Below are positions 684 through 24,950 of a stretch of DNA of 64,000 nucleotides, one piece after another. A program made the translations under genes and the position numbers. The stretch comes from Hygrophila difformis (Eukaryota > Streptophyta > Magnoliopsida > Lamiales > Acanthaceae). The stretch's first letter is position 1, and every line of letters begins with the position of its first letter. The notes below the pieces were generated by a model. That model was given only the letters and a program-made list of their open reading frames with translations, made no database searches and had not been told where the DNA came from. Location of the stretch: contig JAOANR010000005.1 of assembly GCA_030278955.1 (NCBI GenBank), positions 35,157,105 through 35,221,104 of the forward strand, given 5' to 3'.

Positions 684-950
684 TTATTCAGATTCCCACA
701 CTGATGGATAGAACACTTTGAGGTATTTTGCATTTATACTTTGTTTGTGTTCTTGGCCATCGATGTCCATTAGTTTGTATGCACCATTAAGCAGTCTTTG
801 CGTAACAATGAATGGTCCTTCCCAATTTGGAGACCACTTGCCTGTTTCATTGCCACGCACCCCCGAGGGTAGAATTACCTTCCATACTAGGTCTCCCTCG
901 TTAAAAGTTTTGCCTCGAACCCTCTTGTCGTAATGTCTCGCCATTTTCAT
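684..950 (-). pseudogene. Integrase C-terminal tail of element T, out of frame with pol
   Basis: This short frame encodes the usual end of a Tat integrase: a basic start, a GDLVWK-type segment, a KWSPNWEGPF-type strand and a final LKVFYP-type strand, followed by a stop. It follows the pol frame (947-4093) directly but in another phase. The pol frame ends early at 947, while the conserved tail continues in the next frame, so a single-base indel around 950-985 is the simplest explanation. I therefore treat it as the broken end of pol and not as a separate gene. Confidence 0.8.
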
Positions 951-7000: not shown

Positions 7001-8733
7001 ATGCGTTGTAATCTATTAATAAAAGAACTTGCCGTCTCATCGGCAAATTGTTTGGTGTTAGTGAGATCTGCAAGACTAACCTGCGACAGAGGTGTATAAA
7101 ATCTGTCGTGAAATGCCCGCTCGAGATCGGCCCAATTTTGAATTGAATTTGGCCGCATGGCTGCAAACCAGACAAATGCGGGTCCAGTCAAAGAGGAACT
7201 GAACAATCTTAACTTCAACCAGTCGTTGGCCGCTGCTTCCCCACACTGAGCAGTAAACCTGCCCACGTGTTCTACGGTTGATTTGCCGTCGTCCCCCGAG
7301 AACGTGGTGAACTCGGGCATTTTGAAGCCTTTAGGGTAAGGCTGCATGGTGTCTACCCAATCCGGGTATGGTTTCCTATAGGTGGGTCGTTCCATCGGCC
7401 TCAATTGAATGCCGAAATGTTGCTGCATCATATCTGCTAAGGATTCGGGCGACACTACCGGCGCCTGTGTAGGAGGCATGGCAGCTTGTTGATATACGGC
7501 GGCCGGATGAGCCATGGCGGCCTGAGGCATGGCGGCCTGGACCATGGTGGCGGTCGAGACCAAGTTGGTGGTCGGATGACTCGTGTTGATGGCCGGCCGA
7601 CTTATGTTGGCGGCCTGAGGTTGCATGGCGGCCTGGTGTGAACTGGAAGCCTGGGTGGCCAAGTATGGACTGGCCTGTTGTTGGGCGGTCTGAAGTGGGT
7701 TGGAGGTCTGAAAGTGGGCGGCCTGCAGGGAGGCGGCCTGATGATATGTGGCCTGTGGTAATGGGGAGGCCTGATGATGGGCGGCCTGAGGCAATGGGGA
7801 GGCCGCCTGATAGGAGGCCTGATGTAATGGGGAGGCCTGATGATGGGAGGCCTGAGGCAATGGAGAGGCCACCTGATAGGAGGCCTGATGCAATGGGGAG
7901 GCCTGATGATGGGAGGCCTGAGGCAATAGAGAGACCGCCTGATAGGAGGCCTGAGGTAATGGGGAGGCCTGATGGGAGGCCTGAGGCAATGGAGAAGCCG
8001 CCTGATAGGAGGCCTGATGGAATGGGGAGGCCTGATGATGGGAGGCCTGGAGCAATGGGGAGGCCGCCTGATAGGAGGCCTGATGTAATGGGGAGGCCTG
8101 ATGATGGGAGGCCTGGAGCAATGGGGAGGCCGCCTGATAGGAGGCCTGCAACGGGGAGGCCGCCTGGGCGGCCTGAGACACTGGGGAGGCAGCCAAAGGT
8201 ATGTTGGTGCCTTGAGGTTGCAGGTGTCCTCCTCCAGTATTATGCACGGCGGCTGGGATGGAAGCCGCCACTCCAAATGGCGGAACAGATGCCATTAAGT
8301 ATCCTGATGGAGCATACATCATAGGAGGTGGTGCTCCAAACTCAGATAGTGATGGCTGACCAGTCCCCCAAGTCCTTTGTAGACCGCCATACGGTCCTGT
8401 AACACTTGGTGACACATTTATGCCATGGATATATCCCTCTGGAGTATGCAGGGATCCACATATCCTGTCGGTTTGATCGGCCATGGCAGGCCGCAATACA
8501 TCCATAAGGTGTCTTGTTAATAGAGGCATGAATTCAGCCATCGATTCATTCATCGATAGCCGTATTTGTTCCGAAAAAGTTGGGACCTGCATTATCCCCT
8601 GCGGTGGTTGAGAAGTAGTCGCTGTATCATCGACGTTCTCAGATGGTGTTCTTACTGGAGTTTCTTCAGGCAGCGACATTTCTCCAAATTTTTGTGTTAA
8701 GTCCCTTACTACCCGTCCAGATCTGAGTTGCAT
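4081..8733 (-). CDS. gag: Tat gag-protease polyprotein
   Basis: The 1550-residue frame starts at an ATG 33 bases inside the primer-binding site. Its N-terminal third is low complexity, with about 160 residues (186-348) of a 22-residue Gln/Ala/Ser/Pro repeat. A retrotransposon gag domain follows around 480-640, with the WF-x-NW-x-F pattern of capsid helices. Long charged, probably disordered segments rich in Glu, Lys and Pro come next. An aspartic protease lies near 1370-1470, with DNGA at about 1384 instead of the usual DSGA or DTGA, a variant common in this group. No CCHC zinc knuckle is evident. The last codons overlap the pol start. The frame has no internal stops, so it is either young or under constraint. 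Confidence 0.9.
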   Translation of the reverse strand: MQLRSGRVVRDLTQKFGEMSLPEETPVRTPSENVDDTATTSQPPQGIMQVPTFSEQIRLSMNESMAEFMPLLTRHLMDVLRPAMADQTDRICGSLHTPEGYIHGINVSPSVTGPYGGLQRTWGTGQPSLSEFGAPPPMMYAPSGYLMASVPPFGVAASIPAAVHNTGGGHLQPQGTNIPLAASPVSQAAQAASPLQASYQAASPLLQASHHQASPLHQASYQAASPLLQASHHQASPFHQASYQAASPLPQASHQASPLPQASYQAVSLLPQASHHQASPLHQASYQVASPLPQASHHQASPLHQASYQAASPLPQAAHHQASPLPQATYHQAASLQAAHFQTSNPLQTAQQQASPYLATQASSSHQAAMQPQAANISRPAINTSHPTTNLVSTATMVQAAMPQAAMAHPAAVYQQAAMPPTQAPVVSPESLADMMQQHFGIQLRPMERPTYRKPYPDWVDTMQPYPKGFKMPEFTTFSGDDGKSTVEHVGRFTAQCGEAAANDWLKLRLFSSSLTGPAFVWFAAMRPNSIQNWADLERAFHDRFYTPLSQVSLADLTNTKQFADETASSFINRLQRIKGRCTIAIPDKEIANIAVANMLPKLREHLIVQDATDLAQLAERAARVEKFLREQEEKRPMRRVHFEEIKLSDDEDEPVEVAVAELVQTAKPHTCAALKPPKQREAKYKPEEDLFDMGKADQVFDALLKDGVIKLPEGQKLPAAEEIRGRAFCKWHNSYTHSITKCRSFRTAIQNKIKEGRLKIAGMKVDLDPFPQLPIGVSGLIPNPEDGGSSSQNNRGKEHIEIEEEDVDLLSDESDHERKELCGKQPRFKNMAKEDFKKVLEAEEREHHKKKNPPLRVEISKQAVEIHENGKHQPIARDYRHGVQVVPTLMRRPEHPVETERWMKNRAQNKATHKEPPPMTRSQFRRAQRRYAEEMRQWEAQIHKLETSRPRKPVQPTYFKGETSQQQRPLHEKTHSRTVARKPDSPIPPREERFYEASKRPPQAPSPSARESIRERMQPPFSSTRRPVRERLQPPSSSTTKGPVRERLQWVERKPQPSSSPKPKVTKAGLPQTNVSSSASNDKGKAVATTESDEGGNKVKSAGQKFIEKLDKMDMTPSNMAMASVLMKYMAYLAAHEAGEFGSEPHSFEGFTAYCETVETQKKSQTQVETKSTSEALQATNEASQVNFGAITPTEVEAAVEANLDKPKVGISILGIMTDERGTMDDMNIDEGYEDDMWGNVNLNIDEEPHFELDGMDLEDEVFWQDLDKELKEADDRKEGPNDPSVPIRVFGLAADEEISDTESEIWDEEEPSFARLIERMDEMIAELSHPTREAPPAQELGSRHDASKAMAQFAKPKVAQTRQLKPLYVKAHIDGRPMSRVFVDNGAAANVMPMSTLRKIGKSERDLIPTRVRMCSFVGEATQPAGFITADVTIGSKTIKVAFFVVKSKTCYSALLGRDWIHMAQCVPSTLHQQLLIWDGDQIELVEADPQPFAGPDANNDEAIFYLEDIQPASALIGTNMDLESIDFTTSGFKLRSAYSRHEASCSA
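7690..8175 (-). repeat. Minisatellite inside gag, 66-bp unit
   Basis: The unit is about 66 bp and encodes a 22-residue Gln/Ala/Ser/Pro/His peptide. About six imperfect copies can be followed, each made of shorter GGCCTGATG-type sub-repeats. All copies keep the reading frame, although they differ in the residue after each ASPL block. The array may be unstable in length between copies of this family. Confidence 0.85.
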
Positions 8734-10432: not shown

Positions 10433-10980
10433 CCACAATAGATCAGAGAGTTGAATGTGAGATGGTGACACTGATAATCATTCCATTTTCTTCTTCACGT
10501 TCTCCTTCGTCTACTGCTTTTGTCTGAATACTTTTCAATTATTGATTTTATTGCTTGGAGCATCAAAATACTGATGATGAGGATACACAATAGAGTATGA
10601 ATACGCCAAACGATAGATTACAACTACTGATGATTGTCATATAATGTAAAATTGTAAATGTGTTTTTGTATGTCAAGGAATTAATTAATTAGTTGAAAGA
10701 CGTGGAAAATGTTATGACAGATGATGACAAAATAGTTGCACTTTGGTGTAATATTTTATTTATTTATTGTGGGATATTTGAGGATATTCATTCTGGAAAA
10801 GGTCCAGCCAATCTTTAGGGGTTTTTGGAGATATATACCCTCCAACAATAGGAACTTTAAGTTTAGTACCTAAAAGTTTCATCCTTTAGGTTAGACCCAC
10901 GAATGTTTTCAAAACTTTGAGTTGGGTACCTTGCATTTATATTTTATTTTTATTTGCTTGTTTGTATTTTATATATTATA
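10433..10980. other. AT-rich intergenic DNA
   Basis: There is no coding signal. A stretch at about 10893-10930 resembles, in inverted orientation, the sequence right of the viral insertion (about 21690-21725). Both contain ACCCAC-x-TTTTCAAA-x-GGTACC. Confidence 0.6.
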
Positions 10981-10984
10981 TTGT

Positions 10985-11033
10985 TTATTATTGTTATTAT
11001 TATTTTATTTATTTGTTTGTTTATTTATTTATT

Positions 11034-11087
<54 letters not shown>

Positions 11088-11090
11088 TAT
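10985..11090. repeat. Compound microsatellite (TTTA)n-(TTA)n-(TA)n
   Basis: Simple repeats run without interruption up to the stop codon of the last viral frame at 11095. Caulimovirid insertions are often found next to AT-rich simple repeats (established knowledge), so this probably marks the left edge of the insertion. Confidence 0.9.
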
Positions 11091-11094
11091 TTTT

Positions 11095-11349
11095 TTATCC
11101 GGTATAATTAACCTGCCACTGTTTTCTTTCCCGGTCTATTCCTTTTTCATATGCCTGTAGGTTGTTGATTTCATCATTTATCCAAAAACTTAAATCTAAT
11201 TCTTCCATTATGAGATTTTTCCTGTTTAAAAGTTGTAAACATTTTATCTTTGCTTCGATTTGGATTTTCACAATTTCTTTTTTAATGCGGTATCTTTCAA
11301 TCGCAGTTTTCTCCCATTGACTGTAGCTTCTTATTGTTTTATAAGTCAT
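11095..11349 (-). CDS. Small viral ORF, basic and helical (84 aa)
   Basis: This is the last frame before the left edge of the viral insertion. Its ATG lies two bases after the stop of the preceding ORF. The product is charged and mostly helical by composition, rich in Lys, Glu and Ile, with no recognised domain. The stop codon touches the flanking microsatellite, so the true viral C-terminus may have been altered at the junction. In the circular genome it would lie between the leader and the primer site. Function unknown. Confidence 0.55.
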   Translation of the reverse strand: MTYKTIRSYSQWEKTAIERYRIKKEIVKIQIEAKIKCLQLLNRKNLIMEELDLSFWINDEINNLQAYEKGIDRERKQWQVNYTG

Positions 11350-11351
11350 TT

Positions 11352-11666
11352 TTAATGTTGGTTTTTGATATGGTTAATGAATTCTGTTTTGGAAGTATTC
11401 AACTCTTTTATTTTTGTTTTAAGGTCAGATGATTGGTAACTAATCACTTCTTCATATCTGTGTATTGAATTACGAATGATATTTATTTCTTCTTCATGGT
11501 TTAACCCATATATGAGTTCTTGTACTTCTTCTTCTTCGTCTTCTTTATATTCTTTTAACCTTATAATTGAATCTTTAAGGTCTTTTATTTCTTTTTCTGT
11601 TTTCCACATGGTTTCTCCAAGTTTTCCACATTCTGGACAAATATCAAAAAGTGTTCGTGCTTCCAT
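11352..11666 (-). CDS. Small viral ORF with CxxC and coiled coil (104 aa)
   Basis: The ATG shares its A with the stop of the upstream ORF (TAATG at 11664-11668). Near residues 10-13 there is a CPEC pair. The rest is acidic with heptad spacing, suggesting a coiled coil. No family is recognised. The tight coupling to both neighbours suggests translation from one polycistronic RNA by reinitiation. Confidence 0.55.
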   Translation of the reverse strand: MEARTLFDICPECGKLGETMWKTEKEIKDLKDSIIRLKEYKEDEEEEVQELIYGLNHEEEINIIRNSIHRYEEVISYQSSDLKTKIKELNTSKTEFINHIKNQH

Positions 11667-12088
11667 TAGTTATTTCTGGCTAAATGTTCTTCTTGTAATT
11701 TTTTCCACATTTTTTCTTCATATTCACATGCTATGAAATAGTTTTCACATCTTTTTATATGGTTATCCTGTAATTTTTCAAAAACATTATAGATTTTAGT
11801 ATGCTTTTGATAACTGTTTTCTAGAATTTCTATTTCATTTTTTAGAAATTCAGCCTCCTTAGTCACTTTCCATTTTATAATATTTTCAAACAATCTTTGT
11901 TTTCTGCAAATCATGTCTATTTGATTTCGCTTATTCATCAGTCTAATAAGCCAAATTTCACATTCTTGGCATAGAAAGTGTGTTTTCGGATAAGGTATAA
12001 TAACAAACCTTGTTTCTGTGTTTTCAAAAGCTTCTGCTTTAAACAAATCTGTTTTAGAGTTTTCAGCAGTTTTAGTCATATTCTCCAT
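11666..12088 (-). CDS. Small viral ORF with CxxC and coiled coil (140 aa)
   Basis: First of three coupled small frames located after the viral promoter. A CQEC pair lies near residue 40, followed by a long charged helical segment. The plan of a CxxC near the N-terminus and a coiled coil after it resembles the N-terminal part of the coat-pol polyprotein (CQDC near residue 97) and the small ORF at 21266-21520. This may point to duplication, but eye comparison cannot prove it. Function unknown. Confidence 0.55.
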   Translation of the reverse strand: MENMTKTAENSKTDLFKAEAFENTETRFVIIPYPKTHFLCQECEIWLIRLMNKRNQIDMICRKQRLFENIIKWKVTKEAEFLKNEIEILENSYQKHTKIYNVFEKLQDNHIKRCENYFIACEYEEKMWKKLQEEHLARNN

Positions 12089-12258
12089 TTGTTTTGATAA
12101 AAGATATTAGTTATTTCAGATAAAAGTTTTAAAAACACTGGTTTTTGTGCGCGAAAAACTTATATGTCGTGATGTCTTACTAGGTACTTGCCATCTCCTA
12201 TTATTCTCTTGGTCATGTTAAATTTCTGATTATGTGTCATGGGTCCTATTGTCCTTTG

Positions 12259-12456
12259 TTATGGAAATATTGTCATAAACATTAAGTCCGCAATCCTCTT
12301 ATTACTGTCACTGATGAGATATTTTTCTGGGCCTGTTTCGGGTTTCAAATTCAAATTAGCATTATCCAGACCTAAATCTGAAATGTAAGCAGGGGGTCTA
12401 AGGGGCAAATCAAAAGGGACAACAGTAACAAAAACATCATTATGTTCAACAAACAT
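12259..12456 (-). CDS. Possible leader ORF (65 aa)
   Basis: This is an ATG-started frame in the presumed leader between the promoter and the 140-residue ORF. Composition is protein-like, with a proline-rich middle and few Lys-rich runs, unlike shadow frames nearby. No domain is recognised. It could be a short upstream ORF of the leader or chance. Confidence 0.3.
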   Translation of the reverse strand: MFVEHNDVFVTVVPFDLPLRPPAYISDLGLDNANLNLKPETGPEKYLISDSNKRIADLMFMTIFP

Positions 12457-12752
12457 CCCTGAATTGTGGTTCCCCTAACGAGTCTTTCTTACAGCTTTTA
12501 TGGCATAAAGCCCTTTAAATTTTTATCTTACTCCCCTAATGGCATATCTCATCAATTAAGTTTTAAAAGGTTACATGTTTATGTTTATAACATTATCATC
12601 CATACATAGAACAATTATACCATAACATAAATCATAAACTAACCCATACCTTGAGAGAGGAGAGGCTTTCCCGTTCAGACGGGCCCCTGTATTTCAGAAG
12701 GTAAAGAAAAGAGGAAGCAATCCACACCGGGTCTTTCTTTACAAACTGAAAT

Positions 12753-12758
12753 TTTATT
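12753..12758 (-). terminator. Viral poly(A) signal
   Basis: AATAAA on the minus strand lies about 110 bases after the predicted transcript start and about 490 bases after the transactivator stop. In pararetroviruses the signal lies just after the start, is bypassed on the first pass and is used on the second. The spacing here fits that. Confidence 0.65.
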
Positions 12759-12841
12759 ACTGAAAAGGGTTGGGAATACAAGAGAACTAGAAAGAGAAAG
12801 AGCTTTCGAGAGTAGCAAGAGTGCAGTCTCAAAAACCTTAA

Positions 12842-12960
12842 GAGAGAGAGAGAGCAAAGTGAGTGTGTGTTTTACAAGTGAAGACCATCCCTCTATTTAT
12901 AGATGGGAATGTCATCTAAGTAATCCACAACAACCAATAAAAACGTGCCAAGTGGCAAAG
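12842..12960 (-). promoter_or_regulatory. 35S-type viral promoter and CT-rich leader start
   Basis: The TATA box TATAAATAG lies at 12893-12901. A CCAAT-type ATTGG lies about 30-40 bases upstream, and a TTGCCACTTGGCACG palindrome-like block lies further up. The start is expected near 12865. A CT-rich run (12842-12854) follows directly, as in caulimovirus leaders where such tracts raise expression. It lies downstream of the transactivator frame, the position expected for the pregenomic promoter. Confidence 0.75.
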
Positions 12961-13247
12961 TTATCCGATAAGGTTCGGATGAAAAATCAAACAACTAGTA
13001 CAATAATACAACAATACAATAATATAGTAAAGAGGGGCCTAGTGCCCATTAACGCGGTTTTCAAGAGTCACATGGCTCTTATCGGATTTTTTGACCTTTT
13101 CCGCCTTGGATTCCTGCTTTTACATGGTTAGTGGTGCTTTTGGCTCCACTAGCATTTTTGTTTTCTTCTTGACTTTTTCTTTTCCGGATTTTTTCCTTCA
13201 CATGCTGGCATTTATTGTGAATTCCAGCTCATTTCTTCGTGGCTCCA

Positions 13248-14693
13248 TTAGTATTCTTCATCATTGTGGGGGCCGCCACTTTCTTTTTTCTGATTTTTTA
13301 TAATTTTATTGGCCTGGAATTTTGCTTCATTTTTTCTTAGTGCCACCAGTGCACTAAACCTTCCACTTTTTCTGGTTGCCATTGCTTCAGCAAAAGTAGG
13401 CTTTAGTTCCATTTCAAGCTTATGAAGAATATCTTCTTCACTGAGGTTTTCACATTTTCCAGTCTGTACTGGACTCATAGTTTTTGGCAAACTACCAGCC
13501 ATAACCGGAATTAATGTGCTTTTACCATCTACCGGACTAGATGGGCTTAGTTCAACATTTTGGTCCTCAAAGACCTCAGGGTTAGAACTTCCCTGGTTTG
13601 GTTCAAAATCATCTGAACTTATGCTTTTTAGCAAAGCATCAGCTATCAACGGACTTGGCTCGTCTTTACCGTCTGCCGTTTGAGACGGACTAGATTCAAA
13701 CTTTTGATCCTTAAAGACCTCAGGAGTTGAATTTTCCTGGTTTTGCTGCATCCAGGCTTTTGCCAATTCTACTGCAGTCATAGAACTGGTGGGTTTGGGT
13801 TCTGGACCATAGACTGGTTTTTCTTCTGGCTTTGGTGTTTTCAGTGTGAGGGACACAATTTTTGAGGTCAATTTCTCATTTTGGTTTTGAAGGATTTCAA
13901 GTTTCTTGGTGAGGGTTTCAATCTGGGCCTCTGTTTCAAGGGTTTTCATTTTTTGGTTTTCAAAATTTTGTAACCATTCGGCCTTTTGGGCTTCATATTT
14001 ACAGACTTCCTTGGCCATTTTTTCACAATGGTCACAAAACACAATGTGGGTTTTAGAAGAATGTCCAATTGAATATTGGACTGGGCCTGTGGGATTTTGG
14101 GTTTTTGGCCTCAAACCATCAACAATGTTTTTCAAACTTGGGCTTACAAAGAAATCTGGGCCCATTGTGGTTTTTGCAAATTGAATTGCAGACACTATGT
14201 CATAAAATCCTTTATGAAGAGGTTTTTCATTATCTTCATTAAGAGATAAAATATCATTTTTATCATAAATTCCTTTTTTATAACCTTCATAGATTACATA
14301 ATATAAAAATGGTTTTATGTTATTAAATTTCTGGAAATACATGCTTAAAGCAGAGAGACAAGTAACAATATACCTGCTGTTGTTTTTGTCAACTGATGCT
14401 CTCCAGATGTTGTCACAAAGGCAGATATGTTCCTCTGTGTAGTTCAACCCTGTGATAGGTCTGTACTTTATGTTATCAAATAAGATTAACTCTACATTAT
14501 TGCCAGTTTCTGCTCTTTTGCCAAAGCAGATTTTCACTCCTTTTTCTGGGAGTTTATCTTTTTTCTTCCCTTCTGGGATGCTGGTTTTAGAAGGGATTGT
14601 GTAATATCCCTCTGGGGTTTTCACCATCCCTGTGGTTTTTACTCCATTTTCATTGCTGATTTTCAAAGAGTTTTTCTGGGAGTTTTCTGCCAT
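13248..14693 (-). CDS. Candidate viral transactivator / inclusion-body protein (481 aa)
   Basis: The first ATG is at 14693, 17 bases after the polyprotein stop, and I prefer it to an upstream TTG. The N-terminal half is a compact, aromatic-rich region (about 60-220). A CDHC pair with a further Cys follows, then a leucine-rich coiled coil (about 225-290) and a Ser/Pro/Glu-rich tail containing two related blocks with LxxSxxxD-x-PEVF-DQ patterns (near 320 and 360). Position after RNase H and before the main promoter matches the ORF6 transactivator of multi-ORF caulimovirids. I see no diagnostic motif, so the call rests on position and size. An unrelated accessory protein remains possible. Confidence 0.55.
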   Translation of the reverse strand: MAENSQKNSLKISNENGVKTTGMVKTPEGYYTIPSKTSIPEGKKKDKLPEKGVKICFGKRAETGNNVELILFDNIKYRPITGLNYTEEHICLCDNIWRASVDKNNSRYIVTCLSALSMYFQKFNNIKPFLYYVIYEGYKKGIYDKNDILSLNEDNEKPLHKGFYDIVSAIQFAKTTMGPDFFVSPSLKNIVDGLRPKTQNPTGPVQYSIGHSSKTHIVFCDHCEKMAKEVCKYEAQKAEWLQNFENQKMKTLETEAQIETLTKKLEILQNQNEKLTSKIVSLTLKTPKPEEKPVYGPEPKPTSSMTAVELAKAWMQQNQENSTPEVFKDQKFESSPSQTADGKDEPSPLIADALLKSISSDDFEPNQGSSNPEVFEDQNVELSPSSPVDGKSTLIPVMAGSLPKTMSPVQTGKCENLSEEDILHKLEMELKPTFAEAMATRKSGRFSALVALRKNEAKFQANKIIKNQKKESGGPHNDEEY

Positions 14694-14710
14694 TCCTGTA
14701 ACAATATTAT

Positions 14711-17700
14711 TCAATTCTCAATATTCCAGTCCTCCCTGTAAAATTGATCCCATTTTAATTTATATTTTTCCTCGTCATTTTCATCATAATTATCAATTGA
14801 TTCGTTTTTAAATTCAGTGTCATATAATGGTTTTTCCCTTTCTTTAATCAGAATTCTAGATAGTATATCAGCAATTTTGTTATCTTCTCCTTTAATATGT
14901 TCGAATTTTATTTTGTAGCCTTTCTGACTAATAACATCTGTAAAATTCAACCACCTTCTCCTAGACATTGATCTTTTTTCTTGGAGTTGGCTATGAAATT
15001 TTACTATGGCTTCACAATCAGTTCTTACTGTGAATCCTGGTTTTCCTGTTAAAAACAGTTCAAATTTATCAAGTGCGTATTTTATTGCCAACAGTTCTGC
15101 ATCAATTGAGGAAAGGTTTCCCTTCTCTCTATATTTTTCTGATGCATATTGGCAAATTTCTTCTTTACTTTTAGGTGAGTAGACATCCTTTTTTCGCAAA
15201 AGGATAGCTCCCCATCCTTCATGTGATCCATCAGTTTGCACAATAAGATAATCACTATCTTCTGGCAGAACCAATTCTGGAAGTGTTTTTAATGCTTCTT
15301 TAATTTTTTGTACATTTTTTATATCTTCTTGGTTAAAATATCTTTGACCGTTTTTTCCCAGTTTGTTATATAATGATCCTGTTAATGAGGATAAGTTTTT
15401 AATGTATGGTCTAGCATAATTAACCAATCCAAAAAATTGTTGTAATAGTTTTGTATCTTCCATTTTATCAGGAAATTCAATAGCCTTTTTAGCAATATGA
15501 TCTTGGAGTTTTATTTTTCCTTTTCCAATCTCTGCCCCAAGGAATGCTATTTTAGTTTTATTAATTTCCATCTTTTTCTTTGAGATGATTATTCCATGTT
15601 TTTCAAATAGTCTAAACACTGTATCAAGATGACTCATATGTTCAGTACTATTTTTTGAAAATACTAGAATATCATCAATGTATACCAAAACAAATTTTTG
15701 GTATGGTTTAAAAATTTTGTCCATTTTTTGTTGAAATATAGCTGGTGCATTTTTTAGTCCAAATGGCATTACTAACCATTCAAATAAACCTTCTGGACAT
15801 GTAAATGCAGTCCATTCAACTGACTCGGGATGCATTTTTACTTGCCAGAATCCTGACTTACAGTCAAATTTGCTATATACTTTTGAGTCTTGAATCCTAT
15901 TTATTAAGACTGTTTTATCTGGTATATTGTAAGCAAAATCTTTTGTATTGTCATTAAGTCTTTTATAATTAATGACCATTCTTGATTTTCCTCTTACAAT
16001 TTCAGAATGTTTTCTTACAATAAAAGCTGCAGACCTATGTCTGGAGTTTGATTCTGTAATTACTTTTAAAGCTTTTAATTCATCAATATGCATTTTGAAA
16101 TCTGCTATATCCAGATTTGTAGGATTTATTTCTGCAGTTGAGATTCTCAATTCTGGATTTATTATTTCAAGCTTGCATATTGTTCCATCTTTTTCCCAAT
16201 ATTTCTGGATGTTATCTCCAATAATTTGGGATTTTTCTAACCTCTCAATCCATTTTGTTATGGTTTCTTCAGGCTTAAATCTAGTTATACTTATTAATTC
16301 TTTCAGTTTTGGAGTTTCAGGAATATATTCTTCTTCAAACTCTGTAATTTGTATGTTTTCTTTACAAGTTTGTTTACATGCTCCTTTTATTTTACATTTA
16401 CAATTTTCAATATCTTTATCTTTTAAAAGTTTTTTATTTTTTGTTTTTGTATTAGTAGGGGCTCCACCACGCTTCTCTCGCAACTCTGATGTTGTTAAAA
16501 GCTTGGTTCCCGCATTACTAATACTAGGTGCAAACATTGTCAAAGTTGCTTTTTCAACAATTTGAATATAATCTTTTGTAATAAATAATCCTCCATTATT
16601 TTGTAAGAAGAATTGTAATCCTAAGATTACATCTGCATTTATTACTAAATTTTTTATATATGAATTATCAGGAACTCCATAGGGTTCTGATATTCCACAA
16701 TTGGTTTCAAAGAATATCTGTCCACCTGAAATAGGTTGTTTTGTTGTATATGATATTCTTCCATCCATTAATTCTGATTTAATGGGTTTTGTTAAGTTTT
16801 TCTGTAGATGTTCTGGGATAAGTTTCTCATTTATTATTATTCTAGTACATCCTGTATCGATTATTGCATTAGTACGAAATACCAATTCTCTTAATTTAAA
16901 GATTATTGGTACCCTTAATGTAGTTAATGATGAAGGATCGTGGCACACGGGTATGTACTCAGGGTTTTGTGCTAACATGTACTCCGTACTAGGATTTTGT
17001 TCATTATTAGATTCTTCTTCAGGAACTTCTTTTCCTTTATTTCCCGTATTTTCAGAACTTAACATATTATATTCTTCTAAGATTTCTTCTATGTTTTCAA
17101 TTCTATTTTTTAATTCTGTAAGATTCATGATACCTTGTAAATCAAAAAGCTTTCTTTCAATTATATCTATTCTTTTTGTGATGAATGTATAATTATCATC
17201 AATTTTTGTTATTGGCATTTCTTCGGGGAATTTAATTTTATAATACTTTAACAAGCATATTTGGCATATTTCTACGTGACATATTGTACATTTAGCTCTA
17301 AGTTTCCTTGATGGATAATAAGAGCATTTTATACAAGGTGTAGAATCAGTGCCTACCCTGAAAAGCCAATTATGGTTTTCGCATTCATTAATTTCTCTCA
17401 TCATATACTCAGTTTCATATGGCATCATATATTCTTTATATGTGATACCATTATACGAGTTTTCATTTGCAAGCATATTTATCAATTCATAGGGATCATT
17501 ATCCTCTTGTTCTTCTATAACATTTTCCTCTACCGTTACTATACTATATATTGTTTCAGTCTCAGAAACATCTGAGTCTACATCTAATATATCTTGTTGT
17601 ATACATTCTGTAAGAATTGCCTCTCTAGAATGTTGGTTTTTTCTTTTAGGACATGCTGTTGCCAAATGGCTTTCATCACCACATGTGAAACAAGCAAGTT

Positions 17701-19438
17701 TCTTTGTATAATTTCTGCTAGGATTATATTTTCTGACATGATGTTTTTGTTTCAAGAAAGGTTTTCTGCTATTTGATTGTTTTATGAAATACTTCTTTCT
17801 TGTTATGAATTTGGGTTTTTTCCTTAATGGTTCTGGTCTACCATATCGTTGAGGAGTGTATATCCTTTTACAGAATGAATAATCAGTTTTCTTAAGTTGT
17901 TTTTGTGCAATTATATTTGTACACTTATCTTTTAATATTTTTACCACATGAACAGCCCTCATACTAATAGTGTATTGTTGAGGATTCTTTTCAACCATTT
18001 TATTCCATGTATCTTGAATTTCTTGACCAATTGGTCTTGGTATTTTCATAAATAATTTTTCACCTAACTCTTGGTTAAAAGCACCTCCTGCTAGGCCTGT
18101 ATAGTAGACATATTCATTTAAGAAGTCTACTGTTCCGTATAAGTCATCTAGGTGCATTTGGTCTAGATGGATTAAGGCATCCATTTGTGTTGTTATATGT
18201 CCCGAATTACCATCTTCACCCATTATTAGGCTTGATATTTTATTTACAAAGTTATAAGGATTTGGTCCTCTTTCTATTAAGTCTTGATAATCCATTGGAT
18301 AGTCTCTTTTAAATACTTCCCACATTGACTGTGCGAATTCTCCTAAATAGGTTTCAAGATATCCATACATTGATTCAGCTGTATCATTATAGTCATTTTT
18401 GTTTTTGATGTAATCGGCTACAACTATGTTTTTCCATTTTGCAATTACTGAGCCCCATTCTTGAGGGCTTACATTTGTTACTTCTAATATTGCTGGGTTA
18501 TGATAATATCCTCTTTCTAAGGGTTGCCTAATTCCTCTAGGTTTTGTTATCATCCCAGGTTGTATCTTTCCATAAGGATATTCTGGATGAACATGTGTGA
18601 TTGAATGTCTAGAATTGTTTCCAGTATAATTAGTTCCAGGTCTCCACTCAGTCCCTCTTTGGTATGGGGCAAAGGGAGTTCTAGGGACTCTTGTTATACT
18701 GTCTCCTGTATTTTTCATGACAATATCTTTGTTCATGAATTCTTTAGCTGTTTTATTTGTTTTCTCGGAATGTAAGGAGATATGGTCTCCCATATATTGT
18801 TCCATTAATGTATTATCAGAACTTTGTCCTACTTCTGATGAGCTTTCCTTTAGGAACAAGTGAGCTTCTATATCTGCTTGTTGTTCTTCTTTTATTTGTA
18901 TTTTTTGTAATCTTTTCTGTACTTCTTTCTCAATAATATCTTCTAAATTATTCTTCCATTCTTTATTTTTTCTTTTCATTTTATCCTTTAATTCTTGTTT
19001 TTGTTCATTTAGTTTTGATATTTCTCTTATCATTTCTTCATAATTTTCTATCCAATTTTCAAAATATCCACTATGTTTTGAACATTCTATTAAATGGATC
19101 ATATGTTTTAACTTATCAGAATATCTTCTATCAAGATCAATTTTACAATCTTGACAATTGTGAGGTAATATTCCTTTGTTTTTGAATTTTTTAGTTAATG
19201 CAGAATGCACATGTTGTGAGAAAACTCTTTCATACCTGTCATGGTACTCTCTTTTATTTAGAATTTTTCCTTTCTTAAAGTTTTCAAATTTTCTTGTTTT
19301 TAAACAAATATGTTGAATGTCTTTAGCAATTCTTTCCACTTCTTCTTCACTAGGGTGGAATATATGTTTTCCTTCATATTTTATATAGTTATCTGTTACT
19401 GGTTTTTCTACGATAAACCTTTTCATTTGTCTATTCAT
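14711..19438 (-). CDS. Viral coat protein-protease-RT-RNase H polyprotein (1575 aa)
   Basis: Domains in order are: a CxxC pair near residue 97 and a coiled coil near 140-200; a coat-protein core (about 320-560) rich in Trp and Tyr; a CCHC zinc knuckle (about 581-594) in a basic stretch; a second Cys-rich patch (about 690-735); an aspartic protease with DTG near 858; RT with MPFGLKNAP and YIDD near 1252-1255; and RNase H with its first Asp near 1401. There is no integrase. The frame is open throughout. It starts 8 bases inside the movement-protein frame. Coat protein fused to pol with a separate movement protein differs from caulimovirus and soymovirus (coat separate) and from badnavirus (all fused). 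Confidence 0.9.
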   Translation of the reverse strand: MNRQMKRFIVEKPVTDNYIKYEGKHIFHPSEEEVERIAKDIQHICLKTRKFENFKKGKILNKREYHDRYERVFSQHVHSALTKKFKNKGILPHNCQDCKIDLDRRYSDKLKHMIHLIECSKHSGYFENWIENYEEMIREISKLNEQKQELKDKMKRKNKEWKNNLEDIIEKEVQKRLQKIQIKEEQQADIEAHLFLKESSSEVGQSSDNTLMEQYMGDHISLHSEKTNKTAKEFMNKDIVMKNTGDSITRVPRTPFAPYQRGTEWRPGTNYTGNNSRHSITHVHPEYPYGKIQPGMITKPRGIRQPLERGYYHNPAILEVTNVSPQEWGSVIAKWKNIVVADYIKNKNDYNDTAESMYGYLETYLGEFAQSMWEVFKRDYPMDYQDLIERGPNPYNFVNKISSLIMGEDGNSGHITTQMDALIHLDQMHLDDLYGTVDFLNEYVYYTGLAGGAFNQELGEKLFMKIPRPIGQEIQDTWNKMVEKNPQQYTISMRAVHVVKILKDKCTNIIAQKQLKKTDYSFCKRIYTPQRYGRPEPLRKKPKFITRKKYFIKQSNSRKPFLKQKHHVRKYNPSRNYTKKLACFTCGDESHLATACPKRKNQHSREAILTECIQQDILDVDSDVSETETIYSIVTVEENVIEEQEDNDPYELINMLANENSYNGITYKEYMMPYETEYMMREINECENHNWLFRVGTDSTPCIKCSYYPSRKLRAKCTICHVEICQICLLKYYKIKFPEEMPITKIDDNYTFITKRIDIIERKLFDLQGIMNLTELKNRIENIEEILEEYNMLSSENTGNKGKEVPEEESNNEQNPSTEYMLAQNPEYIPVCHDPSSLTTLRVPIIFKLRELVFRTNAIIDTGCTRIIINEKLIPEHLQKNLTKPIKSELMDGRISYTTKQPISGGQIFFETNCGISEPYGVPDNSYIKNLVINADVILGLQFFLQNNGGLFITKDYIQIVEKATLTMFAPSISNAGTKLLTTSELREKRGGAPTNTKTKNKKLLKDKDIENCKCKIKGACKQTCKENIQITEFEEEYIPETPKLKELISITRFKPEETITKWIERLEKSQIIGDNIQKYWEKDGTICKLEIINPELRISTAEINPTNLDIADFKMHIDELKALKVITESNSRHRSAAFIVRKHSEIVRGKSRMVINYKRLNDNTKDFAYNIPDKTVLINRIQDSKVYSKFDCKSGFWQVKMHPESVEWTAFTCPEGLFEWLVMPFGLKNAPAIFQQKMDKIFKPYQKFVLVYIDDILVFSKNSTEHMSHLDTVFRLFEKHGIIISKKKMEINKTKIAFLGAEIGKGKIKLQDHIAKKAIEFPDKMEDTKLLQQFFGLVNYARPYIKNLSSLTGSLYNKLGKNGQRYFNQEDIKNVQKIKEALKTLPELVLPEDSDYLIVQTDGSHEGWGAILLRKKDVYSPKSKEEICQYASEKYREKGNLSSIDAELLAIKYALDKFELFLTGKPGFTVRTDCEAIVKFHSQLQEKRSMSRRRWLNFTDVISQKGYKIKFEHIKGEDNKIADILSRILIKEREKPLYDTEFKNESIDNYDENDEEKYKLKWDQFYREDWNIEN

Positions 19439-20396
19439 TTTCCTGACCTTCTTCTTCTGTAAAATCTATTGGTCTTTTTGCAGTTTCATAATCATTAAAT
19501 CTTACTGACGTTTCTCCTCTGGAGTTTATGAAGTAATTTACATTTTTTGGAGTTAAGTTTTTAACATTTGGTTTTTCAAAGAATTTTGATAGATCCCAAT
19601 TTTTCCCAGCATTTTCTTCTGATGATATTTCAATTGGTCCTATCATTTTTACTCCTTCACTTCCTATGATACTTACCACAGTTTCAATTTTTGTTTTATG
19701 TCTGGTTTGACCATTGTTTGTTATTCTTCCTAAGAAGCCTACACATATCATTAGGTTGTGACCAGTTTCCATTTCTTCATATCCTACAGTCTGAATTCCT
19801 ATTTGGATATGCTTCATAAAATCTGTTATTTGTATCATATAATCTGGTGCCAAATAACATACTCCCACATTAGGGTTCATATCAATTTCCATTAACCCTA
19901 TGATAGATTGGGTTGGATTAGTCCACCTTGTATCTAGAACAGTCATTAGGACTTTAGTTCCTAAGTTTTTTCTAGTTAAACCTTTTACTCCTATGGAGAT
20001 TAATCCCATGTGCATGTATTTTTGTCCTTGTCTTTGAAGCCTAATTGCTTCATTATTGCTTATTAATTTTATTAATTTTTTGTCATCTTTTAAACAGCTT
20101 ATTGGTTCCGTATAATGATATTTGTAATAACCTGTGTTCCAATTAAGGAATCTTTGGTCATACAATAATCTTGGTTCCAATTGGATTAATGTTCTTTTCT
20201 TGAAGTTTTCAAATTCAATATCAGGGTCAATTATTTCTTCAATTATTGTTGGCCCTTCTTCAAGTTTGGTTTTTTCTCTAAACATTCTATCTATTAAGGT
20301 TTTTTCAAAGTTTGAGCTTTCAATTCTTTGAGAATTACTTCTTTCTACTAGACTGTTTTTGGATTCATTAGTAAGAGAAAATGATCTCCTACTCAT
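19431..20396 (-). CDS. Viral movement protein, 30K superfamily (321 aa)
   Basis: The ATG at 20396 overlaps the stop of the previous ORF as ATGA, and I prefer it to a non-ATG extension. The middle of the protein carries the conserved caulimovirid movement-protein core: an IGVKGLTRK-type strand, a DTRW motif, a YLAPDYM-type segment and an IQIGIQT-type strand. These proteins line plasmodesmata and let virions or nucleoprotein move between cells (established). The C-terminus is charged and probably contacts the coat protein (inference). The 3' end overlaps the polyprotein start by 8 bases. Confidence 0.88.
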   Translation of the reverse strand: MSRRSFSLTNESKNSLVERSNSQRIESSNFEKTLIDRMFREKTKLEEGPTIIEEIIDPDIEFENFKKRTLIQLEPRLLYDQRFLNWNTGYYKYHYTEPISCLKDDKKLIKLISNNEAIRLQRQGQKYMHMGLISIGVKGLTRKNLGTKVLMTVLDTRWTNPTQSIIGLMEIDMNPNVGVCYLAPDYMIQITDFMKHIQIGIQTVGYEEMETGHNLMICVGFLGRITNNGQTRHKTKIETVVSIIGSEGVKMIGPIEISSEENAGKNWDLSKFFEKPNVKNLTPKNVNYFINSRGETSVRFNDYETAKRPIDFTEEEGQENE

Positions 20397-20872
20397 TTTT
20401 GCAAATATTTTTCGTCTGGTTTTACAACCCAAAAATTTAGTTTCTCTTGTGGTTTAGTTTTCCTTCTAGCTTCTGCAGGTAATTTTGCAATTTGTTCAGC
20501 CAGTTGTTTTATTGTATTATCTTCAGGTATTCTAACAGCTTGTATTCTTTCAAGTTTTTCATCTATGCTTTCAATGGCTATTCTTAATGCAGGGTCTTGA
20601 TATTTTTTCATGTTTTCCATTTGAACATGTACATCATCAATTTTTTTCTTTAGTATTTCAGTTGTTACAAGCTCTTTTATTTTCTTGTCAATTAGACTAA
20701 TATTTGTATTATTTGTTCTATTATGATCTGTTATTTCGCCAATCTTCTTATGAAGATTATTAACATTTAGTTTTACTTCTACTAATTCTTTGTTTAATTC
20801 TTTAAATTTATTATTAATTTCTTGTTTAAAGTTTTCTATTGTTTCTTTAACTTCTTTCAATGCTGTTTCCAT
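20393..20872 (-). CDS. Small viral coiled-coil ORF (159 aa)
   Basis: The frame starts at TAATG shared with the preceding stop and ends at ATGA shared with the movement-protein start. Most of the protein is heptad-like and rich in Lys, Glu, Ile and Leu. The last 30 or so residues are basic and Pro-containing. Badnavirus ORF2 and caulimovirus ORF3 virion-associated proteins have the same plan, an N-terminal coiled coil with a basic C-terminus, so a virion-associated role is a reasonable inference. No sequence identity was tested. Confidence 0.65.
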   Translation of the reverse strand: METALKEVKETIENFKQEINNKFKELNKELVEVKLNVNNLHKKIGEITDHNRTNNTNISLIDKKIKELVTTEILKKKIDDVHVQMENMKKYQDPALRIAIESIDEKLERIQAVRIPEDNTIKQLAEQIAKLPAEARRKTKPQEKLNFWVVKPDEKYLQK

Positions 20873-21273
20873 TATCCTTTAATGATTTTTATGATTTTGT
20901 TACACATTTCATTTACATTCTCAATATTGTTTTCAACAATGTTTTTAATTTCCTTTATTTCTTTATCAAGTTTTTCAACTTTATCTTGTAGTTGTTTTAA
21001 TTCCTCACTATGGTTAATGATTTTTCTTGGATTTGGGACATCATTAACTAGTTTGGAACTTTCATATTGAAGTGTTGTTATGGTTTTAGATAAGTTTTTC
21101 ATTCCACTGGATGATTTATCATATTGGGTTGATAAGTACGTTTGGTTTTCTAATATAACTTTAAGATTTGTATTATTTTGTTTTTCTAATAATTCTAACT
21201 TATCCAGTTTTGCTTCAATTGATTGAAGACTTCTTTGTATATCCATGTTTTTGTTTGTTAATATTTTATTCAT
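20872..21273 (-). CDS. Small viral coiled-coil ORF (133 aa)
   Basis: The ATG lies 8 bases inside the upstream ORF, and the stop shares a base with the next ATG. The sequence has hydrophobic residues at heptad spacing along nearly its full length, with many Asn and Lys, and no Cys pair in the core. It may oligomerise, like the virion-associated or aphid-factor-like proteins encoded at this position in relatives. That function is inferred from position only. Confidence 0.6.
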   Translation of the reverse strand: MNKILTNKNMDIQRSLQSIEAKLDKLELLEKQNNTNLKVILENQTYLSTQYDKSSSGMKNLSKTITTLQYESSKLVNDVPNPRKIINHSEELKQLQDKVEKLDKEIKEIKNIVENNIENVNEMCNKIIKIIKG

Positions 21274-21520
21274 GAGTTTTTAAGTGTTGTCTTAAAGCTT
21301 CTAACCTTATGATTAGTTTGCAATAATTTCCAAAGGTTTTATTTTTCTTGAGTTTTACTTTTTTAATTTTTATTTTATTTTGTTTACAGATCTTACAATC
21401 TTTAGTTTGGTTTTTGAATAATTTTTTCTTTTCTATGTCAATTATTAAGAATTTTTCATATTTAATATTTTCATTTAATTTAATCGTGTTTTGATTATCT
21501 TTTAATCTGTCATTAGCCAT
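21266..21520 (-). CDS. First small viral ORF, basic with CxxC (84 aa)
   Basis: It begins 23 bases after the tRNA-Met primer site, as the first ORF does in several caulimovirids. The protein is very Lys-rich, with a CKIC pair, a later Cys and an HxxxH at the C-terminus, which could form a small zinc-binding, nucleic-acid-binding unit (inference). It overlaps the next frame by 8 bases. No family is recognised. Confidence 0.55.
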   Translation of the reverse strand: MANDRLKDNQNTIKLNENIKYEKFLIIDIEKKKLFKNQTKDCKICKQNKIKIKKVKLKKNKTFGNYCKLIIRLEALRQHLKTHE

Positions 21521-21542
21521 AAGCCCTAAAATCGCAACTTAT

Positions 21543-21554
21543 GCTCTGATACCA
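21543..21554 (-). promoter_or_regulatory. Viral tRNA-Met primer-binding site
   Basis: TGGTATCAGAGC on the minus strand is complementary to the 3' end of plant initiator tRNA-Met, the reverse-transcription primer of caulimovirids. It sits at the right edge of the viral block, 23 bases before the first ORF. This marks the opening point of the circular genome. Confidence 0.85.
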
Positions 21555-21784
21555 AATTTTTAGAGGGGGTGTGTTTTTTGGGCACTTTTTTAGAGAAGTG
21601 TTAAACTCATTTTATAGTTTTGGTTATTAGGTACCATTCTTAAATGAAATAAAACTATTGGGTACCTATCTTAAAGAAAAATTCAATTGGGTACCTATCT
21701 TAAACTTTGAAAATTTTGGTGGGTTTTTCTTTAATTTCCCGCAATCTTTATCCCTTTTGGATTTACATCCTTTCCACTTTCGAA
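21555..21784. other. Right flank of the viral insertion, with GGTACC repeats
   Basis: Three copies of a unit close to TTGGGTACCTATCTTAAA occur in about 110 bases (21628-21710). It is unclear whether the first part belongs to the viral leader or to the host. The hAT target duplication CTTTCGAA lies at 21777-21784. Confidence 0.55.
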
Positions 21785-23233
21785 TAGGGATGGCAAAAAA
21801 GCCCATAACCAATGGGGAAAATCGAAAACCGAATTTTCGGTACGGTTGTGGGGAATGATTATTGGGGATGGGCCGGGGATTGGGGATTTTTTCGGGGTTT
21901 CTTTTGGGGACGGGGATGGGGATGGGGGAAGTAGTCCCCGCCCCGGCCCATCCCCGATATATTTAATATATAATTTATTATATATTTTATATATTATAGT
22001 TAATATTTTATACATTATATTTTATTAATTTGCTATCCAATCCAAAATAATTACAAAATGGTTGAGAACTTGACATATATCCTCTGTAATTTGCATAGCA
22101 TGGACTCTCACCACCAATTTATTTGGCCTTTTGGTGTCGCAAAATAAAAATAATTACTAAAACTCATTTATTTAATGGGTTTATTATATATTAGAAACAA
22201 ATATGAAATTTTGATGTGGATTATGGTTTATTGTTAAACAATACATTTGTGTGTTTTAATATTATAATTTATGAAATTGAAAATTGGCTTGAATAATATG
22301 GATTTGGTCCTCCCAATTACCGAAAAAATTGAAAATTGGCTTGTAAGTATGTAACACCCCGATTTAATTAACACATGATTAATTTAATTAATTATGCTTA
22401 ATTAATAAAGGATTTATTATATGGATATTTTGTAGACATGATCTTAATGAAGTGGAAGAATAAGTGGGTTCAAACCCACAATAGAATAGGAGTCCAAGTG
22501 CTCAAATGGGTGCAATGTGATCAAGACAAGTGGTGCAACCCATTAACCCATTTTCGGAACCGACCCACACTTCATGCCCGACCCGGATTGACCCACACTT
22601 CATCTAAAAACCCCCAAAGCTGTCAATTACTTCATTTTATCACTCAAACACCTCAAGAGGAGCTCATTCCCGTTTTTGGAGCCCTAGGTGGGAAAATGGA
22701 GTCATTGAGGGAGAATTAGTGCATTGTAGCTCAAGACAAGTTGGGGGTTTGGTTACTAACACTTGGGTAAGCAATTTCTTCAACTTATTGCTTGGTTTCC
22801 ATGGTTTTTGTTGAGGTTTTTGGGGCTGTTTTGGGAGGTGACGAAAATTGGGAGTTTTTGCCCTAATCTTGTAGTTAAGCTTGGAGGAGGCTCGGTTTGC
22901 TTGGCTTGGTGTTGTGGAGCTTCAATTAGAGCTTGAATCTCGTTGTGGCAGCCTAGGTAAGTTCCTTGTTCGATTTTGGTTGGGCATTTTTGGATTTGAG
23001 CTAAAAATAAAACTCTTGCATGTGGGTTTTGAGAGTTGAGGATGGTTTGTAGATGTATTGAGGTTTGATTCTTAAATTGTAGCTTGCTTTGGTGTTTGGA
23101 GAAGCTTGGGAGCTGAGGTTGAAGGCTTTGAGACTCCAAAACATAAGGCAAGAGTAGGATTTAGCTCAAAGTGGGGGAAAATTGGAAGAAAGGGGTGAAA
23201 ATCGCGGATTCTGCCCCTGTTTGGTGCTTCAGA

Positions 23234-23340: not shown

Positions 23341-23838
23341 GAAATGGGTTTAAGCGCCACAATTGGCGCCACCTGTGCACCCCAAAAACCCACAAACTTG
23401 AATCGGCTCTAACTAACTCGTTTCTAATCCGATTTTCGCAAACCATATATGAATCTGACCCTACTCGGAACAAGGAATTCAAATATGCAATTGGAATTAA
23501 GAAATAATGACTCCTTCAAAAATTTATTTATAGGAGTTTATAACCTCGGGGTGTCCCTTGCGTGCCGATTCGTTGTTTCTTCCATTTTTCTTTTCCTTCC
23601 GTATTTTATCGTTTCTTACTCGTTCTAGGCTTCGAGAAATGTTTTTAAATGGTCTAATCCTGGTTGGTACTTGATTCATAACTATTGGTATTGGATTGTG
23701 GAATCTACCATGCCTTAGAAATTAAGGAGATTCGAGTGACCTTGTACTTAACTCTTGTAACAGAGTTGCGAGCCAATATGTGGGGTTTGGCTAACCCGGA
23801 ATCTAAATTCTAGTCTTGGGACTTGGAAATTATCTTAG

Positions 23839-24050
23839 TATGCTTTCGAGTCATGAGATTGGGCATGCGTTTGACATTATTATGATTGGTGACTTTATGC
23901 TTTCGAGGATACAAATCTCATGTTTATGCTTTCGAGTTGTTAAACTGGGCATACATGAATATTTGATTATCTTGGGCATATATATATTGTGTTGATATGT
24001 GTTATGCTTTCGAGAACCTAGTTCTGGGCATGTAAGCTTTCGAGAGCGAG
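23839..24050 (+). repeat. Dispersed TATGCTTTCGAG repeats in LTR A
   Basis: ATGCTTTCGAG or GCTTTCGAG occurs at least five times, usually followed within 20 bases by TGGGCAT. The same array is in the 3' LTR near 41525-41740. Possible repeated regulatory units. Confidence 0.6.
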
Positions 24051-24950
24051 ATGCTCTGGGCTCTACCCGCTGTCTGTGGTTCGATCCTTGGGGATGCCAC
24101 TCCGTAAGTCCACTTACCCCTTTATGCATGTAGTGTCCGCGGCGGGGGCACTGTAGGCATCTCTTTCGACCATTAAGGAGAGGTGGATCCTTAAAGGGAA
24201 AGAATGCCGGCCATGGTATTAGGATGCGCGCTAGACATACTTATATGCTGCATTTAGGGTAGATAGACACTTTAGGTCATAACATTTCATCTCATCATCC
24301 ATCATTCATATTATTATCTGTTTTGCAGTGTATGACGTGGTTGAAGCACCGGTATGGGACGGTGTGATGTTTTAATTATGTATTTAATTATGCAATTATA
24401 TAAACTGTTAATAACCCCTCTAAAAGCTTATTCCCTGTTTCCCAGCTTTTCCTATTCTTGCTCAGTACTTTATGTACTGACACCTTGCTTTTTGTCTGTT
24501 TTATAGATACTCCCGGAGGACGCAGAGCATGATCATGGTGATGGGTTTGGGTTGAGTGATCTACTAGGGTTGCATTCCTCTGTATGGACTGATGTTGTCT
24601 GGAGACTATGTTTCTAGTTGTGACTTGTCTGTTATTTCCGAATATTTCATGATGTAGACCTGGTCTGTGAACCGTTTTTCTGTTATTCCTGTTATACACT
24701 TGGTATTTGGACAGGTTAACGTGAGTACCGAGGTGAGATACTGTATGTGGCTTGTAGCCGAGACTTGATGATTATGTGATAGACATGTTTATGTTGCTTA
24801 CTCTGTTACTCCATTGTTATTTTCTATTGGATTTTCTGATTACCAGGCTTCGTGTTATTGAACTTAAATTGATTGGCCAACAGTTTAAGTGAGGTAACAC
24901 GGCAGTGACATCAGCAAAAATTGGTTTAAAATTTTTGGGGCGTTACATGT

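Follow-up and report, generated by a model that had tools for sequence, protein, structure and literature searches.

A 64,000-nt stretch of DNA from Hygrophila difformis (assembly GCA_030278955.1, contig JAOANR010000005.1, positions 35,157,105-35,221,104 of the forward strand), hereafter the window, within which all feature coordinates are given, was analysed together with the 915-Mb host assembly. Its minus strand carries a repeated unit of about 10.9 kb in which the genes of a pararetrovirus (Caulimoviridae) are enclosed by fixed ends with short, imperfect inverted repeats and by 9-bp target-site duplications, and which is present in the genome in many near-identical copies. It is considered probable, at roughly 60%, that the unit is a composite of a pararetrovirus and a DNA-transposon-like unit. 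A first-pass annotation of the sequence had described a recent, little-described caulimovirid with an unusual map of open reading frames (ORFs), which stands, and had missed the multi-copy unit, its fixed ends and the 9-bp duplications. The termini that it had proposed, 11095 and 21554, are not the ends: the unit runs from 21741 to 10818 (10,924 bp), with sharp edges in the copies compared.

The search for other copies suggested by the first-pass annotation was performed in the host assembly and returned, with the movement protein (MP) as query, at least 121 copies at 98-100% identity (121 scored of 768 first-look candidates), of which 120 lie in an open frame of 340 residues and 112 are without internal stops. 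With P8, a small ORF close to the 3′ end of the unit, at least 40 copies at 94-100% identity were found (40 scored of 342 candidates). Matching of the listed MP and P8 places on spacing yielded P8-MP pairs 9,054-9,090 bases apart for 21 of the 40 listed P8 copies, the window included; 19 had no listed MP at that spacing, and for one place, C10:46.58, a listed MP is found 29 kb away. The ends were analysed in 41 copies, all from the MP match list (the 21 P8-MP pairs and 20 more) and all belonging to the best 121 MP matches of the 768 candidates. The end regions were fetched as short stretches, and flanks of 7 kb were obtained for eight copies.

Both ends were located in 39 of the 41 copies, one of the 39 having an N in its flank. 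The ends are of three types, found in 19, 11 and 9 copies; in 39 of 39 the type at the 5′ end is also that at the 3′ end. Exact 9-bp target-site duplications were present in 32 of the 39 copies and duplications with one mismatch in three, while in a control in which the 5′ flank of one copy was compared with the 3′ flank of another, 3 of 1482 comparisons were exact and 27 had one mismatch; in test and control alike, the 3′ flank was read in three registers and the best one taken. In the window the duplicated sequence is TAAAGATTG, found at 21742..21750 on the 5′ side and at 10809..10817 on the 3′ side, the nine bases of either end being equal (minus strand). The 5′ terminal region (21555..21741, minus), whose edge is common to the copies, has the imperfect terminal inverted repeat within its outermost ~25 bases, and the 3′ terminal region (10818..11094, minus) is made up of a variable AT microsatellite followed by a conserved terminus. 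The scores of the short, imperfect inverted repeats were reached by 1 (window's type), 0 and 0 of 2000 shuffles. The ends of the unit begin with GGG and the insertion sites are AT-rich, the exact duplications having 92% A+T.

No match was found between the 7-kb flanks of the window copy beyond the unit edges and the flanks of eight other copies. Moreover, an exact-pattern search of the 915 Mb for ends of the window's type joined head to tail (within 20 bases) gave 0 matches, which is unlike the random opening of a circle. The census of 5′ ends was made with the exact 24-base pattern of the window's end type, one of the three types, and gave 51 exact copies in the genome; in 44 of the 51 the viral primer site follows 150-180 nt on, so that the end mostly goes with the virus and not with a common virus-free transposon. 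For two of the seven other exact 5′ ends, a listed MP lies at roughly the expected distance; a large virus-free family sharing the window's exact 5′ end was not seen in this exact-pattern count of one end type. In tying the 5′ ends to genes, 33 of the listed 121 MP places and 20 of the 40 listed for P8 were used, and the five ends then still untied gave no match when compared by eye with the full lists.

Three further observations concern the ends of individual copies. An A-rich or TAA/TAAA microsatellite directly follows P8 (10965-11095 in the window) and varies in length and make-up among window-type copies (L030-L049). In the copy at C10:42.5 (L022/L114) the 5′ end lies ~280 bases nearer to MP than in the window, and the start of P1 was not found. 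In the copy at C10:46.55 (L068/L088) the 3′ end is absent from its expected place.

Nine ORFs, all without internal stops and all A-rich (39-55% A), occupy the minus strand of 10818-21741 in the order P1, P2, P3, MP, coat-protease-reverse transcriptase (RT)-RNase H, a 481-aa ORF, promoter and leader, P6, P7 and P8. The set of minus-strand frames listed in the first-pass annotation was recovered at the same places and open throughout, including the separate MP, the coat-polymerase fusion and the six small ORFs, and motifs and Pfam domains agree with it. The first block consists of P1 (84 aa, 21266..21520), which contains Cys and His residues, and of the charged, coiled-coil-like P2 (133 aa, 20872..21273) and P3 (159 aa, 20393..20872), intact in 26, 26 and 29 of 30 copies, respectively. 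MP (321 aa from the first ATG, 19431..20396) matches the Pfam MP family at 5.4e-10 and is intact in 30 of 30 copies, all of which stem from the MP match list. The 1575-aa frame of the coat-protease-RT-RNase H fusion (14711..19438), searched against Pfam in two pieces, matched a caulimovirus coat domain (4.9e-23), Peptidase A3B (1.1e-13), RVT_1 (2.3e-37) and RNase H, and holds the DTG, zinc knuckle, YIDD and RNase H motifs. Its coat domain lies at ~18190-17849, the zinc knuckle at ~17692, the protease at ~16867-16586, RT at ~16015-15527 and RNase H at ~15334-14858, all on the minus strand; the Caulimoviridae set of 30K movement protein, coat, retropepsin, RT and RNase H is thereby complete. The second block comprises P6 (140 aa, 11666..12088, minus), situated between leader and primer site, with a frame unlike that of the window copy in 14 of 19 rows, P7 (104 aa, 11352..11666, minus; intact in 19 of 19) and P8 (84 aa, 11095..11349, minus; intact in 17 of 19). 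When either block was dinucleotide-shuffled 2000 times, no shuffle yielded three ORFs of at least 80 aa, so neither is due to chance. Convincing similarity was not found when the six small ORFs were compared with each other, and neither P7 nor P8 matched a Pfam family above its cut-off.

The frames are closely packed, with overlaps of 8 bases for P1/P2 and for MP/coat-pol, 4 for P3/MP and 1 each for P2/P3 and P6/P7, a gap of 2 bases between P7 and P8 and one of 17 bases from the end of pol to the next ATG. The MP stop overlaps the coat-pol ATG in 30 of 30 copies (29 with ATGAATAG, one with ATGAATAA). Since 44 of 508 out-of-frame stops in long ORFs have an overlapping in-frame ATG, this overlap by itself is not proof of a real split; a frame error of a single copy is ruled out by the conservation of the split in 30 of 30 copies, and the separation of MP holds across the sampled population, beyond the window copy. 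As described in the literature, stop-start coupling of ORFs is known in pararetroviruses with polycistronic translation, and the gain of a transactivator has been proposed as what permitted the MP-CP-RT ORF to split (PMC5902531).

Selection was measured on P1, P2, P3, MP, P6, P7 and P8 as the ratio of median non-synonymous (dN) to median synonymous divergence (dS) between end types, the ratios for P6, P7 and P8 being divided from medians. One of 31 copies was lost from the P1-MP set and two of 21 from the P6-P8 set, ends not being found in either case, which left 30 copies and 19 rows. In the former, dN/dS was 0.02-0.03 for MP, 0.07-0.08 for P2, 0.10-0.12 for P3 and 0.11-0.21 for P1, and in the latter 0.11-0.26 for P7 and 0.26-0.28 for P8. 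A pattern of purifying selection is present in P1-P3, MP, P7 and P8, which makes it probable that the viral genes were functional between insertions. Of the variants in P2 and P3 shared by at least two copies, 46 of 61 are at third codon positions, compared with 26 of 53 single-copy variants (p = 0.006). Transmitted variation seems to have passed through selection, single-copy variation to a lesser degree, as fits genes that work between insertions and decay afterwards. Across P1-MP, 5 of 2090 sites separate the window copy from the sampled copy closest to it; if neutral sites in plants change at about 7e-9 per site and year this corresponds, as a rough upper limit, to an age of less than ~0.2 million years. 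On the P6-P8 side the divergence between end types is higher (P8 dS up to ~0.5; L086-L105) than for P1-MP (~0.06-0.2), which suggests mosaic copies or recombination.

Mutator-like elements (MULEs) make 9-bp target-site duplications, and the length of the duplications therefore points to a Mutator-type transposase and not to random end joining. No integrase or transposase family was among the Pfam matches of the unit's proteins (for P2, the best 25 of 41 matches), while two gypsy elements in the same window do match rve. Passive cut-and-paste movement explains the ends and the duplications and leaves the selection on the viral genes unexplained, and a plain pararetrovirus does the reverse; the composite explains both. 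In the mechanism proposed, the virus would be transcribed, reverse-transcribed and encapsidated as a pararetrovirus, and its terminal sequences would be part of the viral intergenic region that separates P8 from the primer site. A Mutator-type transposase, probably that of the host, would use these ends to insert the viral DNA into AT-rich sites, and the inserted copies may in turn supply new viral DNA and thereby further insertions. Reinitiation is the probable mode of translation of the coupled ORFs, and the ORF downstream of pol is a tentative transactivator. That this is a pararetrovirus lineage with transposon-type ends of its own, for which precise, 9-bp-duplicating insertion into the host is a regular part of the life cycle, is a proposition for which the odds are about even.

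Several observations weigh against the composite. Four of the 39 copies show no duplication (2, 2 and 3 mismatches, and one with N), and some duplications are simple sequence (T9, A9 or TAA repeats). The inverted ends are short and imperfect, and they are weakest in the window's own end type; for 5 of the 51 exact 5′ ends, no link to the primer site or to a viral gene of the lists was found. The assignment to Mutator draws on the duplication length and the general look of the ends, and no transposase was found in the unit with Pfam or tied to its ends. Regarding selection, P6 has a dN/dS of 0.4-0.7 and is not conserved in frame (19 rows), for MP taken alone the contrast between shared and single-copy variants falls short of significance (p = 0.21), and sampling by best MP matches biases dN downward, most strongly for MP, the other ORFs being less exposed.

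The same ends, duplications and matching end types would also be expected if a Mutator-like element had captured an integrated pararetrovirus as passive cargo and were moved by cut-and-paste with a transposase acting in trans, the frames being open because the burst was recent. The high identity of the copies, including the near-identity of the window copy to its closest sampled relative, agrees with this, the capture of host genes is known for MULEs, and the low dN may partly reflect the choice of copies by their best MP matches. However, shared variation falls mainly at third codon positions, dN/dS is far below 1 also in ORFs that were not used for choosing the copies, and the exact 5′ ends of the window's type are mostly found with the virus; this origin is considered rather unlikely. 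That the virus itself supplies the insertion enzyme through P7 or P8 is improbable: both are conserved in frame, have no Pfam family above its cut-off and adjoin one end, but at 104 and 84 aa they are far below the size of any transposase known to us, and no catalytic motif was recognised in them.

A chimera of two viral fragments, which the first-pass annotation had raised as what would overturn its interpretation, and a long terminal repeat (LTR) retrotransposon are both very improbable. The initiator tRNA-Met primer site is also used by LTR elements, and four other exact primer sites are present in the window; however, the up- and downstream flanks of the window copy share no repeat and Pfam matches gave no integrase, so that the unit lacks both hallmarks by which an LTR retrotransposon would be recognised. 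A chimera is contradicted by the 21 copies in which P8 and MP lie at near-equal spacing and by the agreement of end types. Also very improbable is an ordinary endogenous pararetrovirus that was integrated by end joining and then spread by segmental duplication together with its host flanks. Break repair, often at TA repeats, is one of two widely held hypotheses for such loci according to a review (PMC10377300), and an AT microsatellite does lie inside one end of the unit. Nevertheless, the flanks of the window copy are unlike those of the eight other copies, and the fixed ends together with the exact 9-bp duplications refute simple end-joined insertion for the copies examined.

Compared with known systems, the proposed composite shares with MULEs the 9-bp duplications, the short inverted ends starting with GGG and the AT-rich sites, and differs from them in that a set of viral genes takes the place of the transposase or gene fragments. 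The inverted repeats of most plant MULEs are long (PMC3310237), whereas those of the window unit are short. The nearest parallel is Teratorn of medaka, a herpesvirus fused with a piggyBac transposon, which is likewise a virus carried as a DNA transposon; virus and transposon superfamily are both unrelated to those considered here. In the open-access literature searched, no fusion of a pararetrovirus with a Mutator-like element is described by title or start of the abstract among the 15 of 107 matching records that were listed.

In a tree of RT-RNase H sequences with 72 rows, the window element falls into a group of five rows (95/88) together with P0011, P0013, P0014 and P0031 (Taraxacum), nested in a part of 46 rows (92/85) that includes badnavirus rows and lies apart from SVBV, Pueraria virus A and RYVV. 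The RT is 68% identical over 243 columns to P0016 (rice) and P0021 (wheat), and 27 of the 101 retrieved rows with at least 200 aligned columns reach 62% identity or more. In published work, 62% RT identity is given as the genus-level threshold, and Vitis, Yendovirus and Orendovirus sequences form one unit (PMC13308828). From published host lists we infer that P0016 and P0021 are Yendo/Orendoviruses, and by RT identity to the retrieved sequences the element likely belongs in the Yendovirus/Orendovirus/Vitis unit. Among these retrieved RTs, no known genus was found to hold the RT together with the same ORF map, an outcome that the first-pass annotation had set against its proposal of an undescribed lineage. 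Identity to the MP relatives is 34-51%, and in 7 of 11 of them the frame continues beyond MP; two are long enough to match the window's coat region, at 35-38%, so MP and coat are fused in those relatives and separate in the window element. Scans with MP confirmed no match in IMG/VR or in a collection of genome contigs, and a scan of IMG/VR with the RT alignment gave one match (28%). Two proteins filed under Corynebacterium sp. MC-02, P0047 and P0131, are a caulimovirid RT (65%) and MP (43%), and are very likely plant DNA inside a bacterial assembly.

Among described groups, Orendovirus is described as having three ORFs, resembling P1, MP-CP-RT and P4 of rice tungro bacilliform virus, and as being without a transactivator (PMC5902531), whereas the window element has a separate MP in 30 of 30 copies and six small ORFs. 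Fixed ends are not mentioned in those portions of the published descriptions of the Yendovirus/Orendovirus/Vitis group that were compared. Dioscovirus (Dioscorea nummularia-associated virus) resembles the element in its badnavirus-like relation, in the small ORFs at the start and in having an ORF after pol, which in Dioscovirus carries a transactivator domain, but it has 8.1 kb and a single MP-CP-pol ORF (PMC6135502). By contrast, the window element has 10.9 kb, MP is split off, three ORFs lie between leader and primer site, and the transactivator domain PF01693 is below its cut-off. Nine ORFs are likewise predicted for grapevine pararetrovirus, with two following ORF7, but its coat and pol are separate. 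For Caulimoviridae, the International Committee on Taxonomy of Viruses gives 7.1-9.8 kbp and up to 8 ORFs (PMC7660458), and nine ORFs are given for RYVV (PMC9719215); the 10.9 kb and the layout of the window element are therefore outside the range given in the publications compared, with the number of ORFs at its top.

The transactivator candidate (481 aa from the first ATG in an open frame of 488 aa, 13248..14693, minus) has a central coiled coil. Fragments of the window copy scored 12.8-13.1 bits against PF01693 (cut-off 21), while Pfam did not list this family for the full-length protein or for the same fragments of two relatives. Relatives are P0009 (65% over the whole length) and P0010 (64% over 71% of the length). 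Structure predictions of the candidate reached mean pLDDT values of 43.8 and 47.5 and were not used.

The initiator tRNA-Met primer binding site and the promoter named in the first-pass annotation were both located. The former (TGGTATCAGAGC, 21543..21554, minus) is the sole site with up to two mismatches on the minus strand of 10900-22000 and lies, starting at 21554, outside the leader. Direct reading gave the TATA box TATAAATA (12894..12901, minus) and the polyadenylation signal AATAAA (12753..12758, minus). Fold and helix map indicate a leader hairpin with short upstream ORFs (12190..12666, minus) that resembles a ribosome-shunt leader, with a two-codon upstream ORF close to the base of the hairpin; the fold of 12089-12875 has a z-score of -3.97, with 0 of 20 shuffles equally stable. 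If the unit is taken as a circle, P6-P8 would lie between the leader and the primer site. The Rfam scan gave no match at the gathering threshold.

Elsewhere in the window, a gypsy-type element on the minus strand (947-8733) has open frames of 1550 aa (gag-protease) and 1048 aa (RT-RNase H-integrase), the first of which contains an array of 33-bp tandem repeats. Adjoining stretches of 258 and 300 bases at 23739-24295 are repeated identically 17.7 kb away at 41425-41982, and are possibly the LTRs of a young element holding nested elements.

Pararetroviruses are not known for precise insertion into host DNA. How caulimovirids integrate is described as speculative in a review, in which the hijacking of a transposon-derived integrase is only suggested (PMC10377300). 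The insertions in H. difformis bear a signature pointing to an enzyme class and are present in many copies in one genome, which makes the question of integration directly testable. Additionally, separate MP, coat-pol and small ORFs are kept in one population, a layout that was not found in the literature compared. If the composite holds true, a virus family would be joined with a transposon-like mechanism in plants, as a plant counterpart of the known virus-transposon fusions, and it would answer, for this lineage, how integrase-less pararetroviruses enter genomes.

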